This document shows positions 94 through 25,941 of a stretch of 37,016 nt of DNA, in pieces. Location of the stretch: positions 1-37,016 of the IMG/VR virus record IMGVR_UViG_3300009537_000074. One strand, written 5' to 3'. Position 1 is the stretch's first letter, and each line of letters starts with the position of its first letter. The notes beneath the pieces were generated by a model. The model worked only from the letters and a program-made list of their open reading frames with translations, made no database searches and was not told the origin of the DNA. The DNA is from a virus. The translations under genes and the position numbers were made by a program.

Positions 94-354
94 ATGGACG
101 AGAACGAATATTACAACAAGTTCTGCAATGAGTGCTACGTACTGCTGGGGCGGCTTGTTGTAGCCCGGAGCCAGCGTGACGCCCTGCTGGAGGCGTGGGG
201 GGCGGACATAAACCAGATGAATAACCTGATTGAGCGGCTGCAGGGGTGGCTGGATAGTCCGAGTCTCGACGCTAACAGCTTGGTGCAGTTGCTGATCATG
301 GACCTCCGGCATTGGTCAGGCACTCTTGACGCCGTTGACGTAGACACCCGGTAG
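94..354 (+). CDS. Small hypothetical protein (86 aa)
   Basis: I do not recognise this protein. It looks helical and acidic (about residues 1-75), with two cysteines close to the N-terminus (KFCNECY). A GTG at 91 is directly followed by the ATG at 94; I chose 94 because GAGGGG at 82-87 is then at a normal distance. It follows the truncated upstream gene by a few bases and its last codons overlap the -35 region of the promoter that precedes the structured RNA candidate. Confidence 0.75.
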   Translation: MDENEYYNKFCNECYVLLGRLVVARSQRDALLEAWGADINQMNNLIERLQGWLDSPSLDANSLVQLLIMDLRHWSGTLDAVDVDTR

Positions 355-364
355 ATGGTATGAT
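335..364 (+). promoter_or_regulatory. Sigma70-like promoter for the structured RNA / next gene
   Basis: TTGACG at 335-340 is followed after 18 bases by TATGAT at 359-364. The expected transcription start, about seven bases after the -10 box, is at 370-372, exactly where the closing helix of the RNA candidate begins (369). Two other intergenic sites in the window (4247-4276 and 22321-22350) use the same TTGACG plus 18-base spacing, which supports this being real. Confidence 0.7.
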
Positions 365-368
365 GGGG

Positions 369-560
369 GTAGGTGGCACCAGCAACGGCTGGCACGGAAG
401 GAGGCCCACCGGGTAACAGCGAGGGCAGGGCGTCACTAAGGCGTAGGGTCGGGCTGACGGTGTGACTTATGTCCGCCTTTTCGACAACGGGCACGACCCA
501 CCTGAGCGACCTAGCTTACCGGGCGGGGCCGTGGTGGAGCGACGCAACACTGCCACCTAT
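369..560 (+). ncRNA. Candidate structured RNA with a four-way junction (no known family)
   Basis: The 230-base gap between two genes holds a set of mutually compatible helices. The outer helix P1 pairs 369-378 with 551-560 (ten pairs, one G-U). Directly abutting it are P2, a hairpin 379-383/388-392 with an AACG loop; P3, 393-397 with 529-533; and a short P4, 534-536 with 548-550. No unpaired base separates the four helices. Inside P3, 412-416 pairs with 516-520, extendable by two pairs past a bulge. Further inside, 432-436/462-466 and 438-443/474-479 would cross as a pseudoknot, and 446-451/494-499 is an alternative. The promoter start coincides with P1. There is no U-rich terminator after P1, so it could be the leader of the gene at 586 or a processed RNA. 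I cannot match it to a known riboswitch, ribozyme, RNase P or tmRNA. Confidence 0.6.
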
Positions 561-585
561 ATGTCTTATAAACAAGGAGAATAGT

Positions 586-843
586 ATGTTGACGGAGTTT
601 CAGTTTGATAAATTGATGAGCATGTTACGCCTCCAGACCCAATACCTCAGAGAGTTGGCCCATCCCGACCGTGATACAACCCCGCCCCCAGCCCCAGACA
701 GGGAGGCTAAAATGGACTCCCTTATTCGGGTACTACTCCATTACGCCTCGCTGCGGCAAAGCAAGCTGCCGGTGGACCTGCGGGAACATATCTTGGAACT
801 GGCGGACGATCTGGGGTACGAGCACGACATTTTACCCTTCTAG
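586..843 (+). CDS. Small hypothetical protein (85 aa)
   Basis: The protein is not recognised. It is predicted mostly helical, with a short Pro-rich linker (TTPPPAPD) between an N-terminal helix and a C-terminal helical half. The open frame extends upstream to 469, but that part lies in the structured RNA; the ATG at 586 has an AAGGAGA at 574-580, so it is the credible start. It is the first gene after the structured RNA and would be the gene controlled by it if the RNA acts in cis. Confidence 0.8.
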   Translation: MLTEFQFDKLMSMLRLQTQYLRELAHPDRDTTPPPAPDREAKMDSLIRVLLHYASLRQSKLPVDLREHILELADDLGYEHDILPF

Positions 844-856
844 AAAGGATGAGCCG

Positions 857-1228
857 ATGAACTTCGAGTTACTCTTATGGTTGGTGGTGGCCCACATTAT
901 TGCGGACTGGTTTTTCCAGAATGATTGGATGGCACGAAACAAGGTGCGGTTTGCCTCCCTCGCCGGGGACGCGCATATGCTGATCCACGGGATGGTGACT
1001 GTATTACTTTTGGGTTGGTTCACGCCGCTACCAGATATCCGTATTGTACGAATCAGTCTGTTAGTCGCCTTTACTCATATGATCATCGATTACCGCTTTA
1101 TATTGGTATGGTGGCGCGGGTTGATCCGGCAAACGACGGAAGGGCCTGCCGCCCTCCATGTGGCGATATGGCAGGACCAGATGGCCCACCTGCTGGTACT
1201 GGTAGCCATCGCGGGGGTGCTGGGATGA
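857..1228 (+). CDS. DUF3307-type membrane protein
   Basis: This 123-residue protein has about four hydrophobic segments and the signature of DUF3307 proteins near the N-terminus: a His and Asp in one helix, then Gln and Lys (VAHIIADWFFQNDWMARNK). A second His/Asp pair lies in the third segment (FTHMIIDYRF). The family is small, membrane-embedded and common in phages and prophages, with unknown function. An AAGGA at 845-849 supports the ATG at 857; upstream extension of the frame would overlap the previous gene. The end overlaps the next start as ATGA. Confidence 0.85.
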   Translation: MNFELLLWLVVAHIIADWFFQNDWMARNKVRFASLAGDAHMLIHGMVTVLLLGWFTPLPDIRIVRISLLVAFTHMIIDYRFILVWWRGLIRQTTEGPAALHVAIWQDQMAHLLVLVAIAGVLG

Positions 1229-1473
1229 TGCGGATGAGTATGATGGCGGATCTGGCTGCCCTGCTTAACAAGATGGAGGTGGGGGACGTGGCTTTTGAAG
1301 AGGGCGATCCCCTATACATAGAAGATGTAAAGGAGGCGATGCACATCGCCATCCACCGTGCCGCCACCCAGAGAAAAATCCTCAACGATCACGAGAGCGA
1401 CGTAAATGTTTTAATCTCCACTATAGCAAACATGATGGCGCTGGAAAGCGTAGAAAAGGCTAACGATGAATAA
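1225..1473 (+). CDS. Small hypothetical protein (82 aa)
   Basis: I do not recognise this protein. It is predicted helical, starting with a Met-rich stretch (MMRMSMM), an acidic loop (FEEGDPLY) and two long helices. Several ATG codons are available; the one at 1225 overlaps the stop of the membrane protein gene as ATGA and is preferred. Its end overlaps the next start by eight bases, so it is translated as part of a tight operon. Confidence 0.75.
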   Translation: MMRMSMMADLAALLNKMEVGDVAFEEGDPLYIEDVKEAMHIAIHRAATQRKILNDHESDVNVLISTIANMMALESVEKANDE

Positions 1474-1651
1474 CCCCAATAATATTGCATATCGCGCCCT
1501 GAAGATGTTAGGGGTGCTGATTGGTTTTGTCGGGATCGCCATTTCGTCAACCCTGCTGACCGACTTGTTAATCAAGGAGTTACCCCTCGGCGTTTTGGTG
1601 GCGCTGGTCATTATGGTCGCCATCGGGGCGGCGTGGTTGATAACCGAATGA
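1466..1651 (+). CDS. Small two-segment membrane protein (61 aa)
   Basis: The protein has two hydrophobic segments, about residues 13-33 (MLGVLIGFVGIAISSTLL) and 40-58 (PLGVLVALVIMVAIGAAWLI), separated by a short charged turn. Size and topology would fit a holin-like or generic small phage membrane protein, but no lysin lies nearby, so I leave the function open. It overlaps the genes on both sides by a few bases. Confidence 0.7.
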   Translation: MNNPNNIAYRALKMLGVLIGFVGIAISSTLLTDLLIKELPLGVLVALVIMVAIGAAWLITE

Positions 1652-2130
1652 GCACCCGCCCCCGGTACGAGACAGAAGCCCACCTGCAGGCAGAGCGGGC
1701 CTTTGCTGCCGATTTGCAGACGGCGTGGAACTGCGAGTTAATCAAACTTGCCGGGGCCAATGAAAGGACCTACCGACTGGACTACAGTGTGGTGCGCGGC
1801 GGGGTGCTGATGGCCCTGCTGGAGATCAAGGTGCGGAACAACCCCTCCGACCAGTACGAGACCCTGATGTTGTCGCTCAGTAAGTGGGCGACTGGGGTGC
1901 GGTATTATCAGGCGGGGTTGGATTTCGCCATCGCCGTCCGCTGGGAGGATAAGGACGGGCATTACAAGTACAACCCCCTCGATATGGGGTTGATGCGTTT
2001 TGAGCACAGCGGGAGGACGGTGCAGACCCGTGATGCGGGCGATATCGAGCCAGTGGTGATGATCCCGGTGAGTCTCTTTACGTTAACGGAAAGGCTGAAC
2101 CATGCAGGCACTACTAAAACGCCAGCTTGA
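1648..2130 (+). CDS. Putative PD-(D/E)XK nuclease-like protein
   Basis: This 160-residue protein has the core pattern of the PD-(D/E)XK nuclease fold: a helix with conserved acid (Glu30), then a strand with Asp45 (YRLDYSVVRG), a turn, and a strand ending Glu59-Ile-Lys61 (ALLEIKVR). A later strand (LDFAIAVRWED) and helix are consistent with the fold. Such proteins act on DNA or RNA ends or branched DNA. The assignment rests on the D...ExK pattern only. The ATG at 1648 overlaps the upstream stop as ATGA and is preferred over the GTG at 1633. Confidence 0.6.
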   Translation: MSTRPRYETEAHLQAERAFAADLQTAWNCELIKLAGANERTYRLDYSVVRGGVLMALLEIKVRNNPSDQYETLMLSLSKWATGVRYYQAGLDFAIAVRWEDKDGHYKYNPLDMGLMRFEHSGRTVQTRDAGDIEPVVMIPVSLFTLTERLNHAGTTKTPA

Positions 2131-2575
2131 GATTGCTGTTAAGTATATTGAAAGGTTTGTGGATGAGAATTACTACCCAGTACCCTATGGTTCGAGGGTG
2201 CTTGTTGTGTGCTGCAAGTGCTGTGGTGAGATAGAAAAAAATCATCGGGAGGGGTGCTTAGTTGCGGAGACGGAGGCGTTTCTTACCGCCTGCGAAGACT
2301 TAACCTGCGATCATGACTGGCATAAGGTGATACCAAGAGACACTCGGATATGCAGCAAGTGCAAGATGCTGTACCGGGGAGAGGTGAATAGCGGGGAAGT
2401 TTACGAGAGTGTCGGGGGATGGTTTCGTGCAGGGAAGCAGGACCCGTCAGGCCGGGAGTGTGAGCATGTATTTTTGCAGGGTATCCCTCCCTTTGAGTTT
2501 AGAGACACCCACTACGAGGCCATTTGTGTTAAGTGTAGTCATAAAGAATTGAGGGCGCGAGATGGACTTGATTAA
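2102..2575 (+). CDS. Cysteine-rich putative zinc-binding protein
   Basis: The 157-residue protein has several Cys pairs spaced as zinc knuckles: CCKCCGE around residue 38, CDHDWH around 89, CSKCKM around 104, and CVKCSHKE close to the C-terminus, plus EC-EH near 140. This suggests two or three zinc sites. No catalytic motif is visible. It overlaps the previous gene by 29 bases and the next by 14, so translation is coupled in this operon. Confidence 0.75.
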   Translation: MQALLKRQLEIAVKYIERFVDENYYPVPYGSRVLVVCCKCCGEIEKNHREGCLVAETEAFLTACEDLTCDHDWHKVIPRDTRICSKCKMLYRGEVNSGEVYESVGGWFRAGKQDPSGRECEHVFLQGIPPFEFRDTHYEAICVKCSHKELRARDGLD

Positions 2576-3026
2576 AGTTTACTTAGGTGGCCCGATTAAG
2601 GGGCAGACGCTGTCGGGGGCGGCTGGCTGGCGGCGACAGCTAAACAGTGACAACTGGGCGGAGGGATTTTTCGAGTTCCTTAACCCCATGCGGGTACATG
2701 AGGAAGAGCTACCTGATGGCCCGGTGGATCAGGGGGTGTATAACAGCATCCTGCGTACCCAGCGCGGCGTGTATGCACGGGACCGCTTTGACGTGATGCG
2801 CAGCGATGTGCTGCTGGTTAATTTTCTGGGGGCCACGAGGGTGTCGATTGGGTCCGTGATGGAGATCGGCTGGGCGAAGGCGGACCCCACCAAGAGCCGG
2901 ATCGTCGTCGTGGTGATGGAGAAGGAGGGCAACCTGCACGATCACTGGTTCATCAACGAATCCACCGACTACCGGGTAGAGACCTTGGTGCAGGCCATTT
3001 CCGTCCTCTGGTCCTTGGTGCCGTGA
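2562..3026 (+). CDS. Nucleoside 2-deoxyribosyltransferase-like protein
   Basis: The protein (154 aa) matches the small Rossmann-like fold of nucleoside 2-deoxyribosyltransferases: an N-terminal strand ending in a Gly-rich turn (VYLGGPIKG, residues 6-14), a second strand with Asn-Pro (FEFLNPMR), an R-D motif (YARDRFDVMRSDVLLVNF, Asp82) and the conserved Ser-Gly-Glu region (SIGSVMEIGWA, Glu101 as the likely nucleophile). These enzymes swap or hydrolyse bases of deoxynucleosides in phage nucleotide metabolism. Some phage members are inactive or only bind nucleotides, so activity is inferred. Confidence 0.8.
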   Translation: MDLIKVYLGGPIKGQTLSGAAGWRRQLNSDNWAEGFFEFLNPMRVHEEELPDGPVDQGVYNSILRTQRGVYARDRFDVMRSDVLLVNFLGATRVSIGSVMEIGWAKADPTKSRIVVVVMEKEGNLHDHWFINESTDYRVETLVQAISVLWSLVP

Positions 3027-3511
3027 TGGAGATTAAACTACACCGCAGCGGGGAGGGGGTGGAGGTATCAGGGCGGGGATGTAGTGTGCGTATTGAGCGA
3101 GATCATGTCAACCAATCGATTCCGGGCTACGTGCGGGAGGTCGGGCTGCGTATTTTTATGACGGATACGCAGGATGAGCACGCATGGCTTATCAGGAGAA
3201 ATGACATGCTGGGCACGTCCATCCTGCTCTGTCCCGCCTCCCTCAAGGCCGACCACTACATCCAAGACTGGCAGGAGAAGCACGACCGGGAAGATGTCCT
3301 GCTCAAACTCAGTGATGCCAAGAAGGTGCTGGCTCACCGGGGGGATAAGGGGGAGATACTGACCAACGAGGAGCGGGGGCTGATCATACACGCTCTGAGG
3401 ATATTAGCAGACGGCAGGGATGAAATGTACAGCAGCGAGATCGGCGCGCTTTTGATGAAACTAGCTTCGATGGATATGATCACGGTTTATAAGGATGAAC
3501 GATATGAGTGA
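3026..3511 (+). CDS. Hypothetical protein (161 aa)
   Basis: I do not recognise this protein. The first ~75 residues look beta-rich, and the remainder looks helical (DREDVLLKLSDAKKVLAHRG and a helix after NEERG). The ATG at 3026 overlaps the upstream TGA by one base; a GTG three bases earlier is also possible. Confidence 0.75.
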   Translation: MEIKLHRSGEGVEVSGRGCSVRIERDHVNQSIPGYVREVGLRIFMTDTQDEHAWLIRRNDMLGTSILLCPASLKADHYIQDWQEKHDREDVLLKLSDAKKVLAHRGDKGEILTNEERGLIIHALRILADGRDEMYSSEIGALLMKLASMDMITVYKDERYE

Positions 3512-3719
3512 AGAACCGAAGTACACATGGAGCGGTCCTTATCAGGGGCCGGGGGATTTAGAGCATGGCTACTTCATCTACAGCCCGGAGCGGATGCTGG
3601 AGCCGGGGGAAGTATGTGATCTGCTGGCGGATTACGAATCTCTGAAGGAACAGATACGCAGAACCAGCTACCTGAAGATGGCGCAGCACTCTACGATTGA
3701 GCGGGGGGATGATGGCTAA
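3504..3719 (+). CDS. Small hypothetical protein (71 aa)
   Basis: The protein is unrecognised. The N-terminal half is rich in Gly, Pro and aromatic residues (YTWSGPYQGPGDLEHGYF), the C-terminal half forms one helix. The ATG at 3504 is preferred over 3495 because AAGGA at about 3490-3495 is then correctly spaced. It overlaps the genes on both sides. Confidence 0.7.
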   Translation: MSEEPKYTWSGPYQGPGDLEHGYFIYSPERMLEPGEVCDLLADYESLKEQIRRTSYLKMAQHSTIERGDDG

Positions 3720-3885
3720 GGCGCGGAAATGCAAACGCTGCGGGGAGGTTATCCCCAAGGACGGCTTCACGATCTATATCCACAGCGGGGAGTACCGGGG
3801 CCTGTACGGGAAGTGCTGCGCAAGGTTGGTAATGGATAAACTGGGGATTCCCCCTGCCCCAAAGGAGGGGAGTGACGATGACTGA
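3712..3885 (+). CDS. Small zinc-ribbon protein (57 aa)
   Basis: The protein has a basic N-terminus and a CxxC pair (CKRCGEVI, residues 6-13) with a second Cys pair (GKCCARL) about 25 residues later, typical of a single zinc ribbon. The spacing with a beta-hairpin between (FTIYIHSGEYRGLYG) supports this. Function is unknown; it may bind nucleic acid or a protein partner. Two ATG codons (3709, 3712) are possible starts. Confidence 0.7.
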   Translation: MAKARKCKRCGEVIPKDGFTIYIHSGEYRGLYGKCCARLVMDKLGIPPAPKEGSDDD

Positions 3886-4168
3886 CCACCGACGAAGGGG
3901 TATCTGCTTAGTGGACATGAACCTACTCGTCATGGCGCTGGCCTTGCCGGAGGGAACCACCATCCATTTTATTGGGCAAAACGCCGACGATTACGCCTGC
4001 GACCGGATGCGGCTGGTGTTCTCCCACAACAACCTGCCCGTTTTGCCGGAAGGATACCACCCCGCCTCCTACGATATCCTGACCAATCCCACCACCGGAG
4101 CGCGCACGTGGGACGCTGGGGATGATGACAGCGTGTTTTCGCCGGGGTTGGGCAGCCCGGCGACTTGA
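3878..4168 (+). CDS. Small hypothetical protein (96 aa)
   Basis: I do not recognise this protein. It has a helix around residues 11-25, an alternating strand pattern (TTIHFIGQNADDYACDRMRLVFSH is split between strand and helix) and a flexible acidic end. AAAGGAGG at 3861-3868 sets the start at 3878, overlapping the zinc-ribbon gene by eight bases. It is the last gene before the terminator and promoter region at 4176-4276. Confidence 0.7.
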   Translation: MTDHRRRGICLVDMNLLVMALALPEGTTIHFIGQNADDYACDRMRLVFSHNNLPVLPEGYHPASYDILTNPTTGARTWDAGDDDSVFSPGLGSPAT

Positions 4169-4175
4169 CACGCTG

Positions 4176-4184
4176 TGATATAAT
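4176..4184 (+). promoter_or_regulatory. Possible extended -10 promoter
   Basis: A perfect TATAAT at 4179-4184 is preceded by TG at 4176-4177, the extended -10 pattern, but there is no -35 box at the proper distance (a TTGACA at 4165-4170 is only eight bases away). If active, transcription would start near 4191 and meet the terminator at 4211-4240 after about 50 bases. Confidence 0.35.
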
Positions 4185-4210
4185 TAAAATGACAGTGATG
4201 CCTTACCCCA

Positions 4211-4240
4211 CCCCCGCTTATGCCCCAGCGGGGGTATTTT
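4211..4240 (+). terminator. Rho-independent terminator
   Basis: CCCCCGC at 4211-4217 pairs with GCGGGGG at 4228-4234 (seven GC pairs, ten-base loop) and is followed by TATTTT at 4235-4240. It closes the accessory operon ending at 4168 and sits directly before the promoter of the RuvC-like gene. Confidence 0.7.
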
Positions 4241-4246
4241 GTCGGG

Positions 4247-4276
4247 TTGACGCTGCCCCCCCTCCTGTACTACAAT
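4247..4276 (+). promoter_or_regulatory. Sigma70-like promoter, predicted leaderless start
   Basis: TTGACG at 4247-4252 and TACAAT at 4271-4276 are separated by 18 bases. The start site expected seven bases after the -10 box falls on the A of the ATG at 4283, so the RuvC-like mRNA would have no leader. No Shine-Dalgarno site precedes this ATG, in line with that. Confidence 0.65.
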
Positions 4277-4282
4277 CAAGGC

Positions 4283-4777
4283 ATGAATATTAACGGTTAC
4301 GGAATAGGGCTGGACCTTGCGACGCGGGTGACCGGGGTATTTGGCACTGTGGGCGACAAGTTTCAGGGCGGCAAGATTATCAAGGCGGACGGCGTCGCCG
4401 ATATGGGCAGCAAGCTGTGGGATTATCTGGATGAACAGAAGCCGGATTGGGTGGCGGTGGAGTCCACCTACCTCGACCGCAGTCATAAAAACGTCCATAC
4501 CAAAGGGGTGCTGGATGAAGTTCGAGGAGTGGTGCGAATGTGGTGCCACCGCAATCAGGCTGCTTTCTACACTGCCCCGACCGCTAAAATAGACAGCGCC
4601 TGCGGTATCCCCACCGGGATCAAGCGCCGGGCGCGAAAGCTACACACGCAAGCCTTCGCCAAGACCTGCGGATTTGTGGTGCCGGGCGACGTTGCCGACG
4701 CTCTTTGCGTGACCCACTGGGGCTTTGGCGAATGGCGTAAGGATCAATGGATTAAGTCAGGAGAAGAAGATGGATAA
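4283..4777 (+). CDS. RuvC-like Holliday junction resolvase
   Basis: The 164-residue protein has the RNase H-fold acids of RuvC-type resolvases: Asp11 in GIGLDLATRVTG on the first strand, Glu60 in WVAVESTYL on the fourth strand, and Asp136/Asp139 in GDVADALCVTHWG on the last helix. A basic helix (KRRARKLHTQAF) precedes the C-terminal acids. Such phage enzymes cut branched DNA before or during packaging, which fits its place upstream of the terminase gene. The frame is open upstream to 4220 but promoter and terminator occupy that part, so the ATG at 4283 is chosen. Confidence 0.85.
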   Translation: MNINGYGIGLDLATRVTGVFGTVGDKFQGGKIIKADGVADMGSKLWDYLDEQKPDWVAVESTYLDRSHKNVHTKGVLDEVRGVVRMWCHRNQAAFYTAPTAKIDSACGIPTGIKRRARKLHTQAFAKTCGFVVPGDVADALCVTHWGFGEWRKDQWIKSGEEDG

Positions 4778-5132
4778 CTCCCCCTCATTAAGCCAGTCAG
4801 GCACCGCCCCCACAACCGGGGACGAACCCTGCCTGTCCGGGGCGGAGTTTCCAGATCGCCGTAACTTTGCTCGTGACTTCGCCCAATGGCTGGCGATGTA
4901 CGACGAACCCTTTTCCCTACCACGCGATTACGAAGAGATGGTGCTTCGCCAATTGCGCGAAGGCAGCTTTGTGACCAGATTTGGCACCATTGCCCGCGCC
5001 CTGCGAGTCCAGAAGATTCCTATAGACACGGGGGTGTTAAGGAAGGCGTATACTACTTCAGCCGTGTGGAGAAATTACGAGGTTTCGCTGCGGATTATTG
5101 ACGATGTAGAAAGGGACGACGATGATAAGTAA
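4770..5132 (+). CDS. Hypothetical protein (120 aa)
   Basis: The protein is unrecognised. The first ~35 residues are Ser/Thr/Pro-rich and probably disordered; residues 40-110 are helical and the end is an acidic run (VERDDDDK). GGAGAAGAAG at 4760-4769 supports the ATG at 4770, overlapping the resolvase gene by eight bases. The middle could be a small DNA-binding helical unit, as expected for a small terminase, but I cannot show this. Confidence 0.75.
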   Translation: MDNSPSLSQSGTAPTTGDEPCLSGAEFPDRRNFARDFAQWLAMYDEPFSLPRDYEEMVLRQLREGSFVTRFGTIARALRVQKIPIDTGVLRKAYTTSAVWRNYEVSLRIIDDVERDDDDK

Positions 5133-5679
5133 TGATTTTGATGGCACGCTGCTGGAGCGGTTGACATATACGGCCCAGACGACGATCTCGCGGGAGATGA
5201 CCGACTACCTTGCTATTGAGCCAGAAGTGAGCATTATGCCGATGATTGCGGACGATCTGTGCGTGGAGGTGCGTGCGCATATCTATGGGCGGACAGCGTC
5301 GCAGGATGAAGTTCGCCATCCTATGGATTGGTGGGAAGCTCTTAAAGATCGCTTTTTCCCGCAGTGGGCCAAACGGCGCTGGCCTGTTGCTTATATGGTG
5401 TATACGATGACGGCGCGGGAACTCTACCCCAAAGTCAAGCTGCCCAATCAATCCCCGGTCATCGTTGTGCATACCAGCACGGCCCCCATCCCTGAGTACC
5501 ATACCGATCCACCCCCGGTGCATACCATCGTTGTCAAAGCCGAGCCGTCAGCCAACCCACCGGAATTATCCCGGCTGGTGCAGGCTAGGGAGCGTGTGGT
5601 AGACTCACTGGTAGAAAAGCTCATCCCCCGCCCGGACGACCGGGAGGCGTTTTATAGGGCGTATTACACCGCCCAGTAA
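5122..5679 (+). CDS. Hypothetical protein directly upstream of terminase (185 aa)
   Basis: I do not recognise this protein. Residues 1-110 appear mixed alpha/beta with many aromatic residues (MDWWEALKDRFFPQWAKRRW). Residues 115-150 are Pro-rich (EYHTDPPPVHT), and the last 40 form a helical segment. Its place immediately before the large terminase would suit a small terminase or adaptor, but no helix-turn-helix is clear, so that remains a guess. It overlaps the previous gene by 11 bases. Confidence 0.75.
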   Translation: MISNDFDGTLLERLTYTAQTTISREMTDYLAIEPEVSIMPMIADDLCVEVRAHIYGRTASQDEVRHPMDWWEALKDRFFPQWAKRRWPVAYMVYTMTARELYPKVKLPNQSPVIVVHTSTAPIPEYHTDPPPVHTIVVKAEPSANPPELSRLVQARERVVDSLVEKLIPRPDDREAFYRAYYTAQ

Positions 5680-5691
5680 CCTGTTGGTGTT

Positions 5692-7311
5692 ATGGACCTT
5701 GACAACCTGCTTGCGCTTTCGGATCATGAACTAAACAGCTTCATGGACTCGTTGCCGGAAACGAGTCGTCTGGAAGTGATGCAAATCATCGAGGCGGAAT
5801 TCCATCATAAACAGAACGAACTACAAGAGGCTGCTGCGCAGTCTCTTGCGGCCTTTGCCCAATATATCAACCCCCGCTATATCCTCGAACCCTTCCATCA
5901 GTCCTTATTTGACCATCTGGAGGCGGTGCTGCGAGGCGACATCAATCGCCTGATGATCTTTGCACCCCCTCAGCACGGGAAAACGGAAGCGGTCAGCGTG
6001 GTCTTTCCTGCCTACTGGTTGGCCCACCGCCCATACGACAGCATCATTCTCGCCTCCTACGCCGCCGACTTAGCCAGAGATAAGTCCGGCGATGCGCGCA
6101 GCATTGTTGCCAGTGAGCGTTACGGCGGCCTGCATCCCAACCACAAGATCTCCGCCGTGAGTCGTGCGATGGATACGTGGAAGCTGGCAAATACAGGTGG
6201 CGGCATGCGTGCCCGTGGGGTCGGGGGGCCGATCACCGGACACCCCGCCCATCTCGCCATCATCGACGACCCGGTGAAGGGGTATGCGGAGGCGTCCAGT
6301 GAGGCGATCCAGAACAGCAACTGGCACTGGTACGACAGCACGCTGTACAGCCGTCTACAGGAAGATGCCCCCGTTATCCTGATCATGACCCGCTGGCACG
6401 AACTGGACCTCGCCGGGCGGATACTGAACGAGCGGGAGGGGAAGAGGTTTACCGTCCTGCGCTACCCGGCGCTGGCGGAGTCCCAAGAGGCCCGCGATGC
6501 TGGCAACGTCCGGCTGGGTTTGGAGGAGGGATTACCCGACCCATTGGGGCGGCAGGAGGGGGAGGCGCTGGCCCCTGAGCGGTTCAGCCGTCAATATCTG
6601 GAGCACGTCCGTGATAACGGTACAGCCTACCGCTGGGGGGCGCTGTATCAGGGCGTACCCAGACCCGCCGAGGGGAATATTATCAAGCGGGCGTGGCTGC
6701 AGATCGTGGACGAGGTGCCGTGGGAGGCGGAGCGAATCCGCTACTGGGACTTGGCAGGCACACGCGGAGGCGGCGCACGGACGGCAGGTATCCTGATGGC
6801 ACGCAGCACGGACGGAAAATACTACATCGAGGACGCCGTTTTTGGTCAGTGGTCGTTTGGTGAGCGGAATAAGGTGATGGAGCAGACCGCCGCCATCGAT
6901 GCGATGAATTATGTAAGGATGGACCCGGAAAACCCGGAGGCGGAACTCTGGGAGATGGATGGGTATAATACGGTGCGGATTTACATCGAGCAGGAGCCGG
7001 GGGCGTCCGGTAAGGAGGTCATTCAATCACTGGTCAAGCGGCTGTCCGGCTTCGCCGCCTTCGGCGACCGCCCCACCGGGAGTAAGGATGATCGTATTCG
7101 CCCCTTTGCGGCACAGGCGGAGATCGAGCAGGTGTACATCAAGCGGGCCACTTGGAACGCGGTCGTGATCGATGAGTTGGCTTCATTTCCCAATGGTCAG
7201 TACCGGGATATTGGGGACGCGGTCAGCGGCGCTTTCAACCTGCTTCATACCAAGCCCGGCTTCGTAATGGGGGTTGCCAACCCGCCAGACGACGAGGATC
7301 GCTGGGTATAA
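5692..7311 (+). CDS. terL: Terminase large subunit
   Basis: This 539-residue protein is the DNA packaging motor. Walker A is APPQHGKTE at residues 91-99, Walker B is HLAIIDDP at 187-194 and the coupling motif is VILIMTRWHELDL at 228-240. The C-terminal nuclease domain begins around residue 345 with its first acid in RYWDLAGT (Asp353), a second strand at KYYIEDAVFG, a strand YIEQEPGASG and a late acid in IGDAVSGAF. Length and motif order are normal. It cuts and translocates DNA at the portal encoded next. The stop codon is the first part of a repeated 31-base element. Confidence 0.95.
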   Translation: MDLDNLLALSDHELNSFMDSLPETSRLEVMQIIEAEFHHKQNELQEAAAQSLAAFAQYINPRYILEPFHQSLFDHLEAVLRGDINRLMIFAPPQHGKTEAVSVVFPAYWLAHRPYDSIILASYAADLARDKSGDARSIVASERYGGLHPNHKISAVSRAMDTWKLANTGGGMRARGVGGPITGHPAHLAIIDDPVKGYAEASSEAIQNSNWHWYDSTLYSRLQEDAPVILIMTRWHELDLAGRILNEREGKRFTVLRYPALAESQEARDAGNVRLGLEEGLPDPLGRQEGEALAPERFSRQYLEHVRDNGTAYRWGALYQGVPRPAEGNIIKRAWLQIVDEVPWEAERIRYWDLAGTRGGGARTAGILMARSTDGKYYIEDAVFGQWSFGERNKVMEQTAAIDAMNYVRMDPENPEAELWEMDGYNTVRIYIEQEPGASGKEVIQSLVKRLSGFAAFGDRPTGSKDDRIRPFAAQAEIEQVYIKRATWNAVVIDELASFPNGQYRDIGDAVSGAFNLLHTKPGFVMGVANPPDDEDRWV

Positions 7312-7339
7312 CACTCCCTGCGGGGCGTATTGGAGGGTG
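7309..7339 (+). repeat. Stop-anchored 31-base element, copy 1 (before portal)
   Basis: The element starts on the terminase TAA and is shared with 18917-18947 and 29448-29478. All copies begin TAAYACTCC, contain GCGTATT, and end with a G/T-rich GTG. In this copy CTCC (7314-7317) can pair with GGAG (7332-7335), which is the Shine-Dalgarno-like part. The 12-mer at 7316-7327 also occurs on the minus strand at 15405-15394, just before another gene. Confidence 0.65.
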
Positions 7340-7340
7340 A

Positions 7341-7379
7341 ATGGCTATTCATAAGGATGGTGTATATGCCACCGATTAG
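7341..7379 (+). CDS. Possible 12-residue leader peptide overlapping the portal start
   Basis: An ATG at 7341 follows GGAGGG (7332-7337) and opens a frame MAIHKDGVYATD that ends in TAG at 7377-7379, just past the preferred portal start at 7366. Ribosomes ending here could restart on the portal. This is only a possibility; the spacing to the Shine-Dalgarno is rather short. Confidence 0.3.
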   Translation: MAIHKDGVYATD

Positions 7380-9987
7380 TGACCTGTTGCGCAACATAAA
7401 GGCGGGCGGACAGCGCACCAACCCCATGCGCGATTGGTTCTTCGGCATAAACTTAAATGCAGATTTTGCCGATTTCCCTGCCAACGACGAGGGGATGACT
7501 CGTGCTTATCTAGCCTCGCTTTGGGCGTATCGATGTATTAAATTACGGTCGATGCGCCTTGGCGCGATCCCCTTGGTGGTCAAAACTCACGACGATGAGT
7601 GGGTGGACCGCGAGGGGAAGCCCACTGAGGAGCGGGTGCGCTCTTTTACCCAGCAGCACATTTTACAGAAGATGGTCGGGCAGCGGGCAGCCCGCACCAA
7701 GCGGCAGCTAGAAAGCGACCTCTGTATCTGGGGTAGGGGGATATTAGAACCCACCAAGCAGGGGCTGCACCGCCTGAATCCTAAAACCATCGAGGTGGTG
7801 AAGGACGAGCACGGGGTGCAGGAGTTCCGGCAGTTTCTCAATGGCAGCGTGGTTGCCACTTGGGAACCGGATGAATTGATCTATATCTATGACTACGACC
7901 CGGATGATGACTTGGGCGGCGTACCCCCCATGCTGTGGGCGCTGCGTGCTGCCGGGGTAGAGGTGAATGTCAACGAGTTTGTCGACGCCTTCTTTGAAAA
8001 CGACGCCACCCCGGCAGGTATTTTGACCACCGACCAGCCCATGCAGGACCCGGAAATAGAGCGGGCCGTCAAGTGGTGGGAAAAGATGTTCCGGGGGGTC
8101 AGGAAAAAGGGTACAGTGGGCGTGGTGGGTAATGGCCTGCGCTTTGAGGCGATTGGGTCCAATCTGGGCGATCTGGCGATCACCGAACTGAGGCTGGAGG
8201 TGCGCCGCGACGTGACGGCGGCCTTCGGGGTGCCGATGACGATTGCGCAAGCCGATGAGGCGGCGAACTATTCGACAGCAAACGAGCAATATAAAGCCTT
8301 TTACACCGAAACCATCATCCCCGAACTGGAGATGATCTGCGAGGAACTTAACCAGCAGTTGGTCCCCCACTTTGGAAACCACCTGACCATTAAGCCGGAC
8401 GTGAGCGGCATCAAGGTCCTGCACGATGACGCCGAATCGGTGGCAAACCGAACCAGCACCGCCTTCGGGGCGGGGACGATGACGCTGAACGAAACCCGTG
8501 AGGCGATGGAGCTTCCCCCGCTGGACCATGATTACATCATGATCCCTAATATTGGTGTTATTCGACAGGATGATTTAGATGCTGTTGCCCGTGCCACCGC
8601 GAAGGCAGCCACGACGACGCAGGGGGAGCAGACGTGGTCGGCGGACGGCATTACGACCAGCCGCGAGATGCCGGAGGAACCGGAGCCGCAACCCGACCCA
8701 TCACCAAATCCCGCCAGTAATGGCAATAAACCCAAAGGCCCGCTGCCCGATAAGCCTAAAGATGTGGTAGGTATTCAGGGGCCGCTGGACCCTAAGCCTA
8801 CCGGACTCCGCCCCAACAGGCCGGATACCCCGCCTGTGCGGGTCAGGAGCGTGCTGCGGCAGGCGGCGATAGATGATATTAAGCGGTGGATGAAGAAGGT
8901 GGACAGCAAGGGGGTGAAGAGCACCTTTACCTCCGACGCCATCCCCTCCAGCATTGCCGGGTTTTTACGATGGGACTTACTTGACGCCGAAGATGAGCAT
9001 GGACGTAAAGCGGCCTTTAAGGCGGCGGAGCAGCAAATCCTCAGCACCGACCCAACGCCGGAAGAGTTTGAGGCTTACTGGTCCGGGCTGGACGACATCG
9101 CCCAAGACCTGATCGCCGGGTTTGGTGATTTATTAGAAAATGAAGAGTTGCGGAAAAGGATCGCCGATAACCTTTCCGAAACCGGGGACGTCGATCTGGC
9201 GATCAGCACGGTGGAAACCTTCACCGAGGCGTGGGTGGATGCGCTGGTAGGGACGCTGGAAGAACCCGGCCCCCTTTCGCAGATCTTCCTTGCCGGGGCG
9301 GCGCGGGGAGATGAACTCCACACCGAGATGCTGGCGATGAACCTCCCTACCCCCAGACGGCACAGCGCCCTGAAGGCGGATGAGAAGTTCGACGTATCGA
9401 CGGCGTGGGGGCTGATCCACAAGGACGCCTTATCCTTTGCGCGTGATTACGCCTATGACTTGGTGCGCGGCATTAACGACGTAACGACCCAGAGTTTTCG
9501 CGAGGGGATGTCGGACTGGATAGAGAAGGGGGGTGGTCTTACCGGATTAACAGATTACCTTTACGGGAGATTACAGGGACTCGACATCCCCACCGGGTGG
9601 TCACCGAAAAAGATCGAGTGGGCGACCAGCCGGGAACGGGCGCGTAATATTGCCCAGACCGAAAGCACCCGCGCCTTTACAGAAGGGAACGTGCAGCGAT
9701 GGCAGCAACTGGGCGTCAAAGATATCAAGTGGCGCACCCAGAACGACCGGGTGGTTTGCCCAGCCTGTAAATCGCTGAATAGCACCGTCGTCGCCCACAC
9801 ACAGGGCTTCTGGGATAAGCTGGCTCCCGCCTTCCGGCTGAACTACACGGCGGAACAGGCCAAGCGCCCCCCCCTTCACCCCGGCTGCCGCTGTTTCCCA
9901 AGCCCAGTGACGGCGTCCAGAAATAAACCGCTGGAACTGGTTGGGCCGGATGCTGATTTTGATGACTTAAACTTATCGGAGTTGTGA
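7366..9987 (+). CDS. Portal protein fused to a Mu gpF-type head morphogenesis domain
   Basis: Residues ~1-430 match an HK97-type portal: RDWFFGINL near the start, a helix with YRCIKLRS, and the long stem region with FGVPMTIAQADEA. A Pro-rich linker follows (about 435-495). Residues ~500-860 hold a helical region and a C-terminal Mu gpF / SPP1 gp7-type domain, recognised by ARNIAQTESTRAF, the VCPACKSLN motif near 797 and PPLHPGCRCF near 838. The portal forms the vertex through which DNA enters; gpF-like proteins are minor head proteins needed in assembly. In many phages they are separate genes. The ATG at 7366 is preferred because AAGGA (7353-7357) lies eight bases upstream; a TTG at 7330 would extend it by 12 codons. 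Confidence 0.9.
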   Translation: MPPISDLLRNIKAGGQRTNPMRDWFFGINLNADFADFPANDEGMTRAYLASLWAYRCIKLRSMRLGAIPLVVKTHDDEWVDREGKPTEERVRSFTQQHILQKMVGQRAARTKRQLESDLCIWGRGILEPTKQGLHRLNPKTIEVVKDEHGVQEFRQFLNGSVVATWEPDELIYIYDYDPDDDLGGVPPMLWALRAAGVEVNVNEFVDAFFENDATPAGILTTDQPMQDPEIERAVKWWEKMFRGVRKKGTVGVVGNGLRFEAIGSNLGDLAITELRLEVRRDVTAAFGVPMTIAQADEAANYSTANEQYKAFYTETIIPELEMICEELNQQLVPHFGNHLTIKPDVSGIKVLHDDAESVANRTSTAFGAGTMTLNETREAMELPPLDHDYIMIPNIGVIRQDDLDAVARATAKAATTTQGEQTWSADGITTSREMPEEPEPQPDPSPNPASNGNKPKGPLPDKPKDVVGIQGPLDPKPTGLRPNRPDTPPVRVRSVLRQAAIDDIKRWMKKVDSKGVKSTFTSDAIPSSIAGFLRWDLLDAEDEHGRKAAFKAAEQQILSTDPTPEEFEAYWSGLDDIAQDLIAGFGDLLENEELRKRIADNLSETGDVDLAISTVETFTEAWVDALVGTLEEPGPLSQIFLAGAARGDELHTEMLAMNLPTPRRHSALKADEKFDVSTAWGLIHKDALSFARDYAYDLVRGINDVTTQSFREGMSDWIEKGGGLTGLTDYLYGRLQGLDIPTGWSPKKIEWATSRERARNIAQTESTRAFTEGNVQRWQQLGVKDIKWRTQNDRVVCPACKSLNSTVVAHTQGFWDKLAPAFRLNYTAEQAKRPPLHPGCRCFPSPVTASRNKPLELVGPDADFDDLNLSEL

Positions 9988-9988
9988 A

Positions 9989-10462
9989 ATGGGAAGAATA
10001 CGAAAAGCAGATACTACGCGATTAAACACCCTCGCCGCCAGAGGACAGGTGGTGCAAAGGCAGGCAGTGGAGACCAGAATTTCCATCCTGCCGCTGACCA
10101 GAATTTCAAACCTGTCTAACATGGCAAGCGCGGCGTCGATTTTTATGTATGGTGAGATAAAGCGAGTGATCGATAATTTGGATTACGCTTATTACAACCT
10201 GCTCAATCAGGGCGAAGAGTACAGGCGATACGGCTCCACCGGGACCATTAAATATATCAGGATTTCGGTGACTTACACCGACAAGGTAAACGGGCAGCTT
10301 GCCGCCATCGGGAAGGTACTACATCGATATATGGGGGACTTTCCCCGCCGCGATTACGATAGGGCCAGAGTGACCCTCCAGCGTCTTGATGACGTACATA
10401 GAAAGCTGGGTAAAGAGATTTATCATGCGTTTAGAGAATTGCAAAAACAAGGGCTAAGATGA
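9989..10462 (+). CDS. Helical protein of unknown function (157 aa)
   Basis: The N-terminal ~40 residues are basic and probably flexible. From residue 45 the protein is a series of long amphipathic helices (YGEIKRVIDNLDYAYYNLL, then GQLAAIGKVLHRYMG, then a last basic helix). I do not recognise the family. It starts one base after the portal stop and opens the run of small helical genes between portal and capsid. Confidence 0.8.
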   Translation: MGRIRKADTTRLNTLAARGQVVQRQAVETRISILPLTRISNLSNMASAASIFMYGEIKRVIDNLDYAYYNLLNQGEEYRRYGSTGTIKYIRISVTYTDKVNGQLAAIGKVLHRYMGDFPRRDYDRARVTLQRLDDVHRKLGKEIYHAFRELQKQGLR

Positions 10463-10463
10463 G

Positions 10464-10790
10464 ATGGCAAAATACAACAAGACCCGGCATGTGGAGGCTA
10501 TCGCCAGATTGCTCAGGCGGCGTATCCCGCAAGTCAGTGTGATCGGTAGGAACCCCGCCAGCCTGAAGCTGCTGGTGAGGCGGACCTACGACGACCATGG
10601 GTATGCGGTGCAGGATGCGGCAAAGATTGCGCGCTTTATCCGGTACAGCTTCCCGATGGTGCAAGTCGTTCACCATCAGGTATCTCAGGAAAGCGACGGC
10701 AGGTGGCGGGCGGAGATTGTTACCCGGTGGCCTGAGAACTGGCCCCGGAAAAGTCCTTACACCAACAACCACTCACTGGGGGTGAGGTGA
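10464..10790 (+). CDS. Basic hypothetical protein (108 aa)
   Basis: The protein is strongly basic with an N-terminal helix rich in Arg (VEAIARLLRRRIPQ), a helix AAKIARFIRYSF and a strand pair (VQVVHHQV, RWRAEIVTRW). Mixed alpha/beta content sets it apart from its helical neighbours. The basic helices could bind nucleic acid, but no known motif supports it. It overlaps the next gene as TGATG. Confidence 0.75.
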   Translation: MAKYNKTRHVEAIARLLRRRIPQVSVIGRNPASLKLLVRRTYDDHGYAVQDAAKIARFIRYSFPMVQVVHHQVSQESDGRWRAEIVTRWPENWPRKSPYTNNHSLGVR

Positions 10791-11005
10791 TGCGTAATAA
10801 ACGGTACAAGGCGGTAGACCCGGAGCAGGTATCCAAAATGCTGAAGGCCCTCCAGCGGACCAAGCGCCTGCTGGCACAAATACCGCTCCCCCGGATGGGG
10901 CGGGAGGAGATCTTTACCCGCGAGGTGGTTGAAGTGTACAAGCACTTTAATGGGCTGGCGCAGAAAATCTTTGACGCCGAACAGAGTCTGAAAAGGCTAA
11001 AATGA
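10790..11005 (+). CDS. Small helical protein (71 aa)
   Basis: Two helices (VSKMLKALQRTKRLLAQI and a longer one from REEIF to the C-terminus) joined by a Pro-containing loop make a helical hairpin. It is basic and lacks any catalytic pattern. The ATG at 10790 overlaps the upstream stop as TGATG; a GTG at 10787 is the alternative. It belongs to the group of small helical proteins discussed for this region. Confidence 0.75.
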   Translation: MRNKRYKAVDPEQVSKMLKALQRTKRLLAQIPLPRMGREEIFTREVVEVYKHFNGLAQKIFDAEQSLKRLK

Positions 11006-11006
11006 G

Positions 11007-11288
11007 ATGAAGTATTTGTTTAAGGCTAACCAGCAATTTACCAGCGTGGTCCGGCAGCTTATGAAACAATCGCGGGAGGCTGTCCGCCAAGCCGGGATCG
11101 CCCATGAGTACACCCGCAACACCGTTGTCTCCTACGCCCAGAGGATGGGGGATAAAAATGCGGAGATCGCGATGCGGGGGGTGCTGCGTAAATACCGGGA
11201 AGCCAAACGGCTACTGGAGTCCGCCACAGGCGATCTGGAAAAGTTCACCAGTTCCGGCCCCCGACCAAGGAGCAAGAGGCCCCGATGA
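11007..11288 (+). CDS. Small basic helical protein (93 aa)
   Basis: The protein has two long basic helices (QFTSVVRQLMKQSREAVRQA and AEIAMRGVLRKYREAKRLL) with a short connector, followed by a disordered tail rich in Arg, Pro and Ser (SSGPRPRSKRPR). Function unknown. It begins two bases after the preceding stop and overlaps the next gene by four (ATGA). Confidence 0.75.
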   Translation: MKYLFKANQQFTSVVRQLMKQSREAVRQAGIAHEYTRNTVVSYAQRMGDKNAEIAMRGVLRKYREAKRLLESATGDLEKFTSSGPRPRSKRPR

Positions 11289-11527
11289 CCCTTAACAAAC
11301 GGCAGGAAGCCATTATCAAGTACCTGAAAGCACGGGGCGGGAGAGCTTTTCTTGACGACCTGCCCGGTCTGGTCATGTCAGGAAAGTTGGTGCAGGCGGG
11401 AATTAATGACGTCAACCAACTGATCGCACGCGGGCTGGTGAAGCAGACTGGATTGTCTCGTGGGTTTGGCGGTGCTTTCGGGAAGGAGTACCTTGTGCCT
11501 CTTATCCAGCTACTCAAAGAAAGGTAA
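11285..11527 (+). CDS. Small winged-helix-like protein (80 aa)
   Basis: The order helix (KRQEAIIKYLKARGG), helix, helix (INDVNQLIARGLVKQ) and a basic Gly-rich hairpin (TGLSRGFGGAFGKEYLV) resembles a compact winged helix. It might bind DNA or a protein; there is no direct evidence for a regulatory role. Overlap with the previous gene is ATGA. Confidence 0.7.
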   Translation: MTLNKRQEAIIKYLKARGGRAFLDDLPGLVMSGKLVQAGINDVNQLIARGLVKQTGLSRGFGGAFGKEYLVPLIQLLKER

Positions 11528-11532
11528 ACCCG

Positions 11533-11802
11533 ATGAAGTATCCAGCACAGGCGATGTTGCGCGAAATGTCAGATCGCCTTTATCGTCTCGGTGCCCGTAT
11601 TGTGGATTATAAGATTACCGATATGGGAGACCGGGGGGAAAAGGCACAGTTTGCCGTCACTATCAAAGACCCGTCTCTCAAGCCGGACCTGATGAAAAAA
11701 CGACTCTATATCGTAGGGCGCGGGTATGGGGGAAGGTTGCTGCGCGAACAGGGGTACTACCCGAACTACGTTTTTGAATGGATGGTGCCGAAGGGTGGCT
11801 GA
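11533..11802 (+). CDS. Hypothetical protein (89 aa)
   Basis: The protein has an N-terminal helix (MLREMSDRLYRLGARI) followed by beta strands (VDYKITDM, KAQFAVTI) and a basic Gly-rich stretch (YIVGRGYGGRLLREQ). I do not recognise a family. It overlaps the next gene by eight bases. Confidence 0.75.
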   Translation: MKYPAQAMLREMSDRLYRLGARIVDYKITDMGDRGEKAQFAVTIKDPSLKPDLMKKRLYIVGRGYGGRLLREQGYYPNYVFEWMVPKGG

Positions 11803-12700
11803 GTTCTATTATGCCGTTCCACTGGGCAACCACCCGGAGTTGATTCGGACGCAGCACCTGCTTTTGCAGTGGGTTGATCAGGACGGCGTGCGCGATATTC
11901 AAAAGCCCGACTCCTTCCATATCACGCTCTGCTATGTGGAGGACGATCAGGGGGCCGATCTGGTATCGGTGCCGCTCCCTAAAATGAACCCCTTCAAAGT
12001 GATGGCCCAGCGGGTCAATTATTTCGAGACCCCGGACGGTTATGCGATCCATCTGGAGGTGGAACCGTCCCTGCCCTTACAGCAAATCCAGCGGCGGGTG
12101 TACCGACACGCGGCAGACGGCGGGGCGGCTGTGTCGGCCTTCGGGGCGGCGGACGTGTGGAATCCGCACGTTACGATGTTTTATTCGGACGGAAAGCCCG
12201 CCTTTGGGCGGCTGAAAACGCCCCTGTCGCTTCCTGTGCGGCAATTCGTCCTGAGTCGTGGAGAATATCAGGTAACAGATCGGTACGTTTTAGGAGGGTT
12301 AAATACGATGACAGAACTTAAAGCGTCCCCCTACGCGATGATCCTTAACCAACTGGATAACGCGGCGCGGGCACTTAACCGGGCGCGCAATGCCGCCTAC
12401 TCCAACCAAGGGGATCGGCAGGTGATTAACAGCGCCGTCAGCAAGATTGAGAGTGCGAATAATCAGGTTTCCCGCGCCGCCCGGTTACTGGCGCAGGCCA
12501 AGTCAATGCGGGATAAGCGAGACTCGGCAAAAACCAGCGACACGCTGGGCATCACTGCCGCAAAAGAGCGCGCCCTGCTCCGGCAGAGTCTGGAAGCCTT
12601 GGCGGAGATCGCCGGGGTGCCTGTCCCGGTACAGCACACGGTGACAAAGGTGATGGACGCCGTGCGCTGGACTCACCGTAACATCCACGATGGGAGGTAG
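11795..12700 (+). CDS. 2H phosphoesterase fused to a helical domain
   Basis: Residues 1-165 form a 2H phosphoesterase with both His-x-Thr motifs: H42-I-T in DSFHITLCYVE and H125-V-T in WNPHVTMFYS. Family members cleave or ligate 2'-5' or cyclic phosphate bonds in RNA or nucleotides, and some phage members destroy cyclic nucleotide signals of host defence; which applies here is unknown. From Met172 to the end is a 130-residue, all-helical domain similar in character to the small helical proteins nearby. The GTG at 11795 is used since the coherent fold starts there. A strong Shine-Dalgarno before Met172 may give the helical domain on its own. Confidence 0.8.
   Translation: MAEFYYAVPLGNHPELIRTQHLLLQWVDQDGVRDIQKPDSFHITLCYVEDDQGADLVSVPLPKMNPFKVMAQRVNYFETPDGYAIHLEVEPSLPLQQIQRRVYRHAADGGAAVSAFGAADVWNPHVTMFYSDGKPAFGRLKTPLSLPVRQFVLSRGEYQVTDRYVLGGLNTMTELKASPYAMILNQLDNAARALNRARNAAYSNQGDRQVINSAVSKIESANNQVSRAARLLAQAKSMRDKRDSAKTSDTLGITAAKERALLRQSLEALAEIAGVPVPVQHTVTKVMDAVRWTHRNIHDGR
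12292..12310 (+). promoter_or_regulatory. Internal ribosome binding site and in-frame ATG
   Basis: AGGAGGG at 12292-12298 lies nine bases before an in-frame ATG at 12308-12310, exactly at the junction of the phosphoesterase and the helical domain. Translation from it would yield a free 130-residue helical protein. Confidence 0.55.
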
Positions 12701-12703
12701 GCG

Positions 12704-12988
12704 ATGACGTTGAAACGCGATCTACGAAGCGCCTACGAAGAACTAAGGCTGTACAGGCGCAAGGTGTCAGAGGCAAGCCAGCATCGCAATCGGGCCTTTA
12801 AGCACTTGCGCGATGCAGGGACGCAGAATTTAGGCTCCCCCGAATTACGTAAGCGGCTGATGGAGGTGCAGCGCCTTCTCAGCAACCTCCGGGGCGAACC
12901 CAGCGAAGCGGACACCTTCCGGGCGTCTGGCCTGTTATGGAAACTTTTTGACGACGTAATGAAGGGGAAGTACGGGAAGCAGGGTTAA
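12704..12988 (+). CDS. Small basic helical protein (94 aa)
   Basis: Two helices, residues ~3-40 (DLRSAYEELRLYRRKVSEAS) and ~45-65 (PELRKRLMEVQRLLSNL), then a third near the C-terminus. It starts three bases after the phosphoesterase stop. It is another member of the local group of small helical proteins; function unknown. Confidence 0.75.
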   Translation: MTLKRDLRSAYEELRLYRRKVSEASQHRNRAFKHLRDAGTQNLGSPELRKRLMEVQRLLSNLRGEPSEADTFRASGLLWKLFDDVMKGKYGKQG

Positions 12989-12991
12989 GTC

Positions 12992-13648
12992 ATGCCGACC
13001 ATCAATCGCGATATCAGCCAAATGTGGGGTGGCCTGCGTATCCTCTTTGCCGAAGAGGAGATACTCGCCATCATGAACCACGCCGCACGGCTGGCAGGGG
13101 AGCAGGCGATAGAGTTCCTGACCAGCGAGTACCCCCCGGAAACCCCGCCCCGGATGGGGCCGCACAAAGGGGTGCTGCCGGAAAAGTCCCCCCTCCAGAC
13201 CCCGAAACAATGGAAATGGTGGTGGGCGATGATGGGGCGGATAGCGCGTGGGGAAAGCGTCCCCCAAAGCCTGCGCGGCTGGCGGGCGGCCTATCAGGTG
13301 ATTGACGGGCGTAAAACGCTGGTGCTCGACGGGGGGTACACCCGGACGGGCACGCTGGTGCGATCCCTGAGTTATGAGGTGGGGGCGATTAAGAACGGAA
13401 TCGAGATCGCCGTTGGCCCCGGCGCGGCGCGGGAGTTTTCGGAGAAAAAAGAGGACATCGCCGATTATGCTCAATACGTTATCGACGAAGCCCCTCCCGG
13501 TGGATATCAGGCCCCCATCCACCGAGATCGATGGAAGCCGATGTTTGAAATATTAGAGTCCAATATCGACGCCATTATGCAAACCTTCTTTGACGCCGCC
13601 GTGGAAGAAATGGAACGCCAGTGGATTACGGCTTGGCGGGATGAGTAG
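12992..13648 (+). CDS. Possible HK97 gp10-like head-tail protein
   Basis: The 218-residue protein has the arrangement seen in HK97 gp10-like completion proteins: N-terminal helices, a region RTGTLVRSLSYEV with a following strand (GIEIAVGPG), then a motif with YAQYV and a basic C-terminal helix. These proteins act where the tail joins the head or as minor capsid proteins. The extra Pro/Trp-rich part at residues 48-80 is unusual for the family. The position after head genes fits. The assignment is moderate. It is the last plus-strand gene before the convergent operon; 17 bases separate the two stops. Confidence 0.55.
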   Translation: MPTINRDISQMWGGLRILFAEEEILAIMNHAARLAGEQAIEFLTSEYPPETPPRMGPHKGVLPEKSPLQTPKQWKWWWAMMGRIARGESVPQSLRGWRAAYQVIDGRKTLVLDGGYTRTGTLVRSLSYEVGAIKNGIEIAVGPGAAREFSEKKEDIADYAQYVIDEAPPGGYQAPIHRDRWKPMFEILESNIDAIMQTFFDAAVEEMERQWITAWRDE

Positions 13649-13665: not shown

Positions 13666-13920
13666 TTACAGGACTCTGGTGGAGTTCGATAAGCGGTTGA
13701 TCTTTTTCATCACATCCGCCACTTGGCGATCAGCGTGAAAGGTCCATTGAGCTAGGAAATCATATCTCTCGCTTATGGCGCTGCTGTCGTCTGGGGCTTT
13801 CCGCAGGTGTAATTTGAAACTCTGTAACAGCCCCATGACCCTTAATCCAGCCTGCCGGAAATCCCGGATGGCGGCAAATAGCTCGTTTAGTTTACGTGAA
13901 GTTTCGCGGTCAAACTCCAT
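13666..13920 (-). CDS. Small helical protein (84 aa), last gene of the minus operon
   Basis: Three helices (ETSRKLNELFAAIRDFRQAG, GLLQSFKLHL and DRQVADVMKKINRL) make up nearly the whole protein. AAGGA lies about seven bases before the ATG, inside the upstream gene's last codons. It is the last gene of the minus-strand operon and I see no clear terminator after it; the convergent plus-strand gene ends 17 bases away. Confidence 0.75.
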   Translation of the reverse strand: MEFDRETSRKLNELFAAIRDFRQAGLRVMGLLQSFKLHLRKAPDDSSAISERYDFLAQWTFHADRQVADVMKKINRLSNSTRVL

Positions 13921-13922
13921 GA

Positions 13923-14189
13923 TTATTTCCTTCCTCCTTGTTTGGCGGGTCCGGGATAACGGCCCTTTGGGGCCTTAAATAATGCGCGGTCTATCTCTTG
14001 GATAACCACTTCTACATCACGGAGGGCACCACGGACTTTGCGACTGTAGATTTTGACTGGACCCCACGCTGCAGCTTGGGATGACTCCAGCTTACGATAA
14101 GCCTCCCGCAAGTTGTCCTCCGCGTTGGTAAGGTTGATCTTGGCTCTATCCAACTGCATCATTGCTTTCTGTCGGCTCGTTAGTGGCAT
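13923..14189 (-). CDS. Small helical protein with basic tail (88 aa)
   Basis: Two helices (KAMMQLDRAKINLTNAEDNL and a second through GALRDVEVVIQEIDRAL) are joined by a short loop, followed by a basic Gly/Pro tail (KGRYPGPAKQGGRK). The hairpin plan equals that of its operon neighbours; the second helix keeps the V-x-x-x-I-x-x-I pattern. Its last bases contain the ribosome binding site of the next gene. Confidence 0.75.
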   Translation of the reverse strand: MPLTSRQKAMMQLDRAKINLTNAEDNLREAYRKLESSQAAAWGPVKIYSRKVRGALRDVEVVIQEIDRALFKAPKGRYPGPAKQGGRK

Positions 14190-14204
14190 TAGTATTTTAT
14201 CCTT

Positions 14205-14408
14205 TTATTTTTTAATATTCTTGATCAATTGAATTACTGTTTTAAGCATCCCATCAATAAGGCGTTTCGCCATTCCAGCTTCTTTACGGGTGGCGTAACC
14301 AATATCTGCGCTCTGGTATATCAACCAGCACTCTCCCGTAGCGGCACGCAGATTCTGTTCTGCTTTCTGTAGGTATCCTAACACTTTGTTAAAATCACTG
14401 TCCGGCAT
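14205..14408 (-). CDS. Small helical hairpin protein (67 aa)
   Basis: Helix one (FNKVLGYLQKAEQNLRAATG) and helix two (KEAGMAKRLIDGMLKTVIQL) are joined by a short loop. The sequence QKAEQNLRAA resembles QKAEQHMRAA of the gene at 14636-14887, evidence for relatedness. No catalytic residues are seen. Confidence 0.78.
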   Translation of the reverse strand: MPDSDFNKVLGYLQKAEQNLRAATGECWLIYQSADIGYATRKEAGMAKRLIDGMLKTVIQLIKNIKK

Positions 14409-14417
14409 GATGATCTC

Positions 14418-14633: not shown

Positions 14634-14635
14634 GA

Positions 14636-14887: not shown

Positions 14888-14904
14888 GTCTCCACTCCTT
14901 TTTC

Positions 14905-15138: not shown

Positions 15139-15142
15139 TTGA

Positions 15143-15382: not shown

Positions 15383-15417
15383 ACCTCACTCCTCGCCCCG
15401 CAGGGCTTTGTTATGTT

Positions 15418-25937: not shown

Positions 25938-25941
25938 GATC

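Follow-up and report, generated by a model that had tools for sequence, protein, structure and literature searches.

Locus and gene context

The window analysed here is a 37,016-nt stretch of viral DNA (IMG/VR record IMGVR_UViG_3300009537_000074, positions 1 to 37,016). A gap of 231 nt (355-585) separates a small gene (94-354) from the 85-aa gene that starts at 586, confirming the intergenic placement given in a preliminary description of this DNA. It is the sole long non-coding gap within 94-13648, where genes elsewhere overlap or lie a few bases apart. The other apparent gap of similar size, 3720-3871, is occupied by a 57-aa frame (3712-3885) that falls under the cut-off of the list of open reading frames and is zinc-ribbon-like, with CxxC and CC motifs (MAKARKCKRCGEVIPKDG...). 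With that gap explained, there remain about 114 nt after 4168, in which a terminator-like hairpin is followed by a promoter-like site. The hairpin may mark the end of a transcription unit begun at about 371. The promoter-like site that follows it within 4210-4290 reads TTGACG-18-TACAAT, and its –10 element ends 7 nt ahead of the ATG at 4283; the mRNA of the RuvC-like gene that starts there may therefore be leaderless.

Further along the window, a block of small minus-strand frames (13666-16208) lies amid plus-strand structural genes and could be driven by a promoter-like site (TTGACA-17-TATACT, 16897-16869) that is the strongest on the minus strand. In the 953-aa product of 18963-21824, the best matches to major capsid proteins mostly cover the last third, which suggests a long N-terminal fusion, perhaps a protease or scaffold. 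Two glycosyltransferase-like and two methyltransferase-like genes are grouped after the capsid gene (22375-27644).

Table 1 Features of the leader region and of the end of the putative transcription unit.
Feature	Positions	Strand	Details
Sigma-70-type promoter	335-364	+	TTGACG-N18-TATGAT with extended –10 TGG; predicted start about 370-372
Candidate structured RNA domain	369-560	+	192 nt, 65% GC; predicted fold, no coding signal, homologue search negative
Closing helix P1, 5′ strand	369-378	+	Pairs with 551-560; 10 bp including one G-U
Closing helix P1, 3′ strand	551-560	+	Pairs with 369-378
Hairpin P2	379-392	+	CCAGC-AACG-GCTGG; 379-383/388-392, pair probability 0.97-1.0
Favoured alternative to P3	403-407	+	GGCCC, pairs with GGGCC 526-530; pair probability about 0.9
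Inner arm	446-499	+	GGGTCG 446-451/CGACCC 494-499, pair probability 0.98-1.0; encloses hairpin 459-466/471-477
Shine-Dalgarno sequence of gene 586	574-581	+	AAGGAGAA; mostly unpaired in the predicted leader fold
First gene after the leader	586-843	+	85 aa; matches no known family
Terminator-like hairpin	4210-4235	+	9 bp, then ATTTTG; –18.2 kcal/mol

The gap had been described as lacking a protein-coding explanation, and this holds: no frame of 355-585 gives a gene-like score or scores as the phage genes do. An ATG at 469 lies in frame with gene 586, and the open frame 469-843 would lengthen that gene by 39 codons, with a codon score over 469-585 that is intermediate between coding and off-frame values. 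However, no ribosome-binding site precedes this ATG, the G+C content by codon position over 469-585 (46/59/64%) departs from the coding pattern (60/44/68%), and 586 has a clear ribosome-binding site of its own, making a partly coding gap very improbable. Because the frames score unlike genes, and the stretch from 469 has neither a ribosome-binding site nor the gene-type G+C pattern, region 355-585 is most likely non-coding.

Promoter

The TTGACG (335-340) and TATGAT (359-364) hexamers with their 18-nt spacer are present as previously described, and the promoter is of better quality than had been claimed, with an extended –10 motif TGG (356-358) that had gone unmentioned. When hexamers and extended –10 are combined, it is the top plus-strand site of the window. 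It is also the only plus-strand case in the window with at least 10/12 matches plus an extended –10; shuffles of the window yield 0.1 such sites per strand. Hexamers alone prove little, because within the first 18 kb promoter-like sites with at least 9/12 matches are no more frequent than expected by chance; position and the extended –10 make this predicted promoter credible. The start of transcription had been placed exactly on the first base of the closing helix P1, a position that needs correcting: standard spacing predicts 370-372 (A371), 1-3 bases inside the helix.

Predicted structure of the candidate RNA domain

The 10-bp helix P1, put forward in the preliminary description as closing a 192-base domain, is present in the sequence and is improbable by chance when tied to the promoter start: a helix of at least 10 bp (one G-U allowed) starting at 365-371 arises in 0.75% of dinucleotide shuffles (P = 0.0075), and one starting anywhere in the gap in 4.7%. 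Pair probabilities in the single-sequence ensemble are 0.96-1.0 for 370-377, falling to 0.76 and 0.56 for the pairs at either end; within this ensemble P1 and the adjoining hairpin P2 are predicted with near-certainty.

The energy of the whole domain is ordinary and no better than the phage composition predicts, with a folding z-score of –1.24 by shuffling and of –1.02 against the same contig (regression against 768 windows, among which the domain ranks 103). Thermodynamic folding, which had been suggested as a check, bears out P1 and P2 as near-certain predictions; the originally proposed P3 is disfavoured and the total energy is unremarkable.

All four helices listed in the preliminary description do pair at the coordinates given there, but the complete four-way junction into which they had been assembled is less secure. 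The P3 helix proposed there (393-397/529-533) is disfavoured, with a pair probability of 0.05-0.14, compared with the alternative listed in Table 1, and once P1 is given, 5.1% of shuffles yield helices of 5, 5 and 3 bp that abut in an equally complete junction. The two cores are nearly isoenergetic, and forcing the earlier junction costs 1.1 kcal/mol. The notable part of the domain is P1; the junction and the overall stability are not notable.

Deeper in the interior, the well-predicted inner arm is flanked by a second hairpin at 430-444. A pseudoknot had been suspected within 398-528, and crossing complementarity is indeed there: AAGGCG (439-444) can be matched by eye with CGCCTT (474-479) across 446-451/494-499. 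This crossing helix competes with, and would destroy, two well-predicted hairpins, and it is no better than they are. The pseudoknot is possible in that the sequence permits it, but it is not established.

Within the domain, positions 396-404 (GGAAGGAGG) contain a perfect 7-base Shine-Dalgarno word, AAGGAGG, followed by no start codon; 398-402 are predicted to be unpaired. The word could bind ribosomes or could be there by chance.

Search for relatives and known families

The domain had been said to match no known riboswitch, ribozyme, tmRNA or RNase P, in agreement with our searches. Rfam 15 gave no match at the gathering threshold over the whole window, and at E ≤ 10 returned only lncRNA and snoRNA noise far under threshold; ARAGORN found no tRNA or tmRNA in the window. 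As identities, tmRNA, RNase P and the Rfam riboswitches and ribozymes were rejected. Going by the annotated genes nearby alone, a retron is unlikely.

No relative of the RNA was found by blastn in 50,697 phage records, nor in about 170 viral loci sharing the terminase or the DUF3307 gene. Terminase kin were gathered with one sequence and then with two alignments, and scanning of their loci by blastn, nhmmer/profile and a single-sequence covariance model found no RNA among the matches listed. Of the 20 loci with the neighbouring DUF3307 gene, none (0/20) has the RNA, and none has another gene in common with this phage next to DUF3307; the search for neighbours through the proteins of genes 586 and 94 gave no RNA homologue. 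Exact 17-base patterns of the RNA occur at 20 loci in viral and genome collections, and at each of them the shared stretch around the pattern is no longer than about 20 nt. Since AAGGAGG is a word of ribosome-binding sites, some genome matches of CACGGAAGGAGGCCCAC directly precede a start codon; the RNA has none after it.

The terminase reaches no more than about 50% identity to any relative among the matches listed; for the portal and capsid proteins, identity over the aligned parts is about 20-36%. The phage appears to have no close kin in the collections, among the matches listed. As no homologue was found, there are no sequences in which to count covarying pairs, which would be the decisive evidence; that none turned up speaks neither for nor against the RNA.

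Proposed function and alternatives

The analysis supports a promoter-proximal, non-coding, closed RNA domain of no known family ahead of gene 586. No terminator-like site was found between 560 and 586, and the mostly unpaired AAGGAGAA precedes the ATG at 586; for these reasons the simplest reading is a 5′ leader of the genes from 586 to about 4168. We infer, tentatively and at somewhat less than even confidence, that the domain is transcribed, folds and acts in cis as the structured leader of this phage operon. Transcription from the extended –10 promoter would yield an mRNA whose leader opens with about 190 nt folded into a self-closed domain, the 5′ end being held in P1. The domain would stop 14 nt short of the clear ribosome-binding site of gene 586 and leave it largely free. 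In cis, it might protect or insulate the mRNA 5′ end; alternatively, it might enable expression of the operon by way of the elongating polymerase or of a bound factor from phage or host.

Among the three roles suggested in the preliminary description, a leader that would control gene 586 fares best, given the missing terminator and the good ribosome-binding site. Cis action is preferred over masking of the ribosome-binding site because that site stays open. Likewise, the hallmarks looked for in a riboswitch or sequestering leader were absent, the Shine-Dalgarno sequence being mostly unpaired and 560-586 devoid of a terminator; a ligand might still induce an alternative fold. A bolder version, in which the domain founds a new class of structured phage leader RNAs and has a pseudoknotted core with either a put-like, protein-free action on transcription or a factor-binding operon switch, is unlikely.

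The domain may also owe its fold to chance, as a high-G+C intergenic stretch (promoter plus leader, or a degenerate gene) with no selected RNA structure. This is a real possibility, to which about a third of our confidence goes: the folding z-scores are close to –1, roughly 13% of the contig's windows fold equally well for their composition, and 5% of shuffles yield such a junction. Against it, P1 falls at the promoter start in less than 1% of shuffles, and a non-coding stretch of about 230 nt is exceptional in so gene-dense a phage.

The self-closed shape, in which a blunt helix joins both ends, would also suit a separate trans-acting small RNA of about 190 nt, released when RNase III or a similar enzyme cleaves the leader at the base of P1. 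We consider this improbable, as the 3′ end has no terminator and the next gene, co-linear and with a good ribosome-binding site, comes directly after it. Although P1 is also a long inverted repeat in the DNA (370-378/551-559), a packaging or replication site or an operator acting at the DNA level is highly unlikely, since iterons and other repeats are absent, the terminase genes are 5 kb off, and the region lies between a promoter and a ribosome-binding site.

To return to the cis-acting leader, the arrangement of promoter and leader is credible, the closing helix notable and the interior uncertain; the domain is a single-sequence orphan candidate. Should its fold and transcription be confirmed, an RNA of no known class would join a short list of phage leader RNAs, open to direct tests for antitermination or mRNA protection.

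Comparison with known phage RNAs

The packaging RNA of phi29 is a phage RNA with a multi-way junction, found in phi29-like protein-primed phages, and a junction of that kind was proposed for the present domain. A packaging-type RNA, one of the roles suggested earlier, finds no support. Large terminase, portal and major capsid genes of the ordinary kind are present in this phage, and the RNA has no Rfam match.

GOLLD and ROOL are large, elaborate non-coding RNAs of phages and prophages, often encoded near tRNA islands, and GOLLD often exceeds 800 nt (PMC12286853). The candidate domain would share with them the character of an elaborate phage-encoded non-coding RNA, but it is far smaller, has no Rfam match and lies in a window without tRNA genes.

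The put RNA of phage HK022 is an RNA-only antitermination leader, structured and non-coding, which lies just downstream of a phage promoter and heads an operon; putL is about 70 nt long with two stem-loops (PMC9378689). The placement is the same here, with the promoter at 335-364, the domain from 369 and the operon from 586. Compared by description, put is short and consists of two stem-loops, whereas the domain has 192 nt, is closed end to end and has a branched interior. We do not claim membership, and take HK022 put as probably the closest working analogue of the domain.
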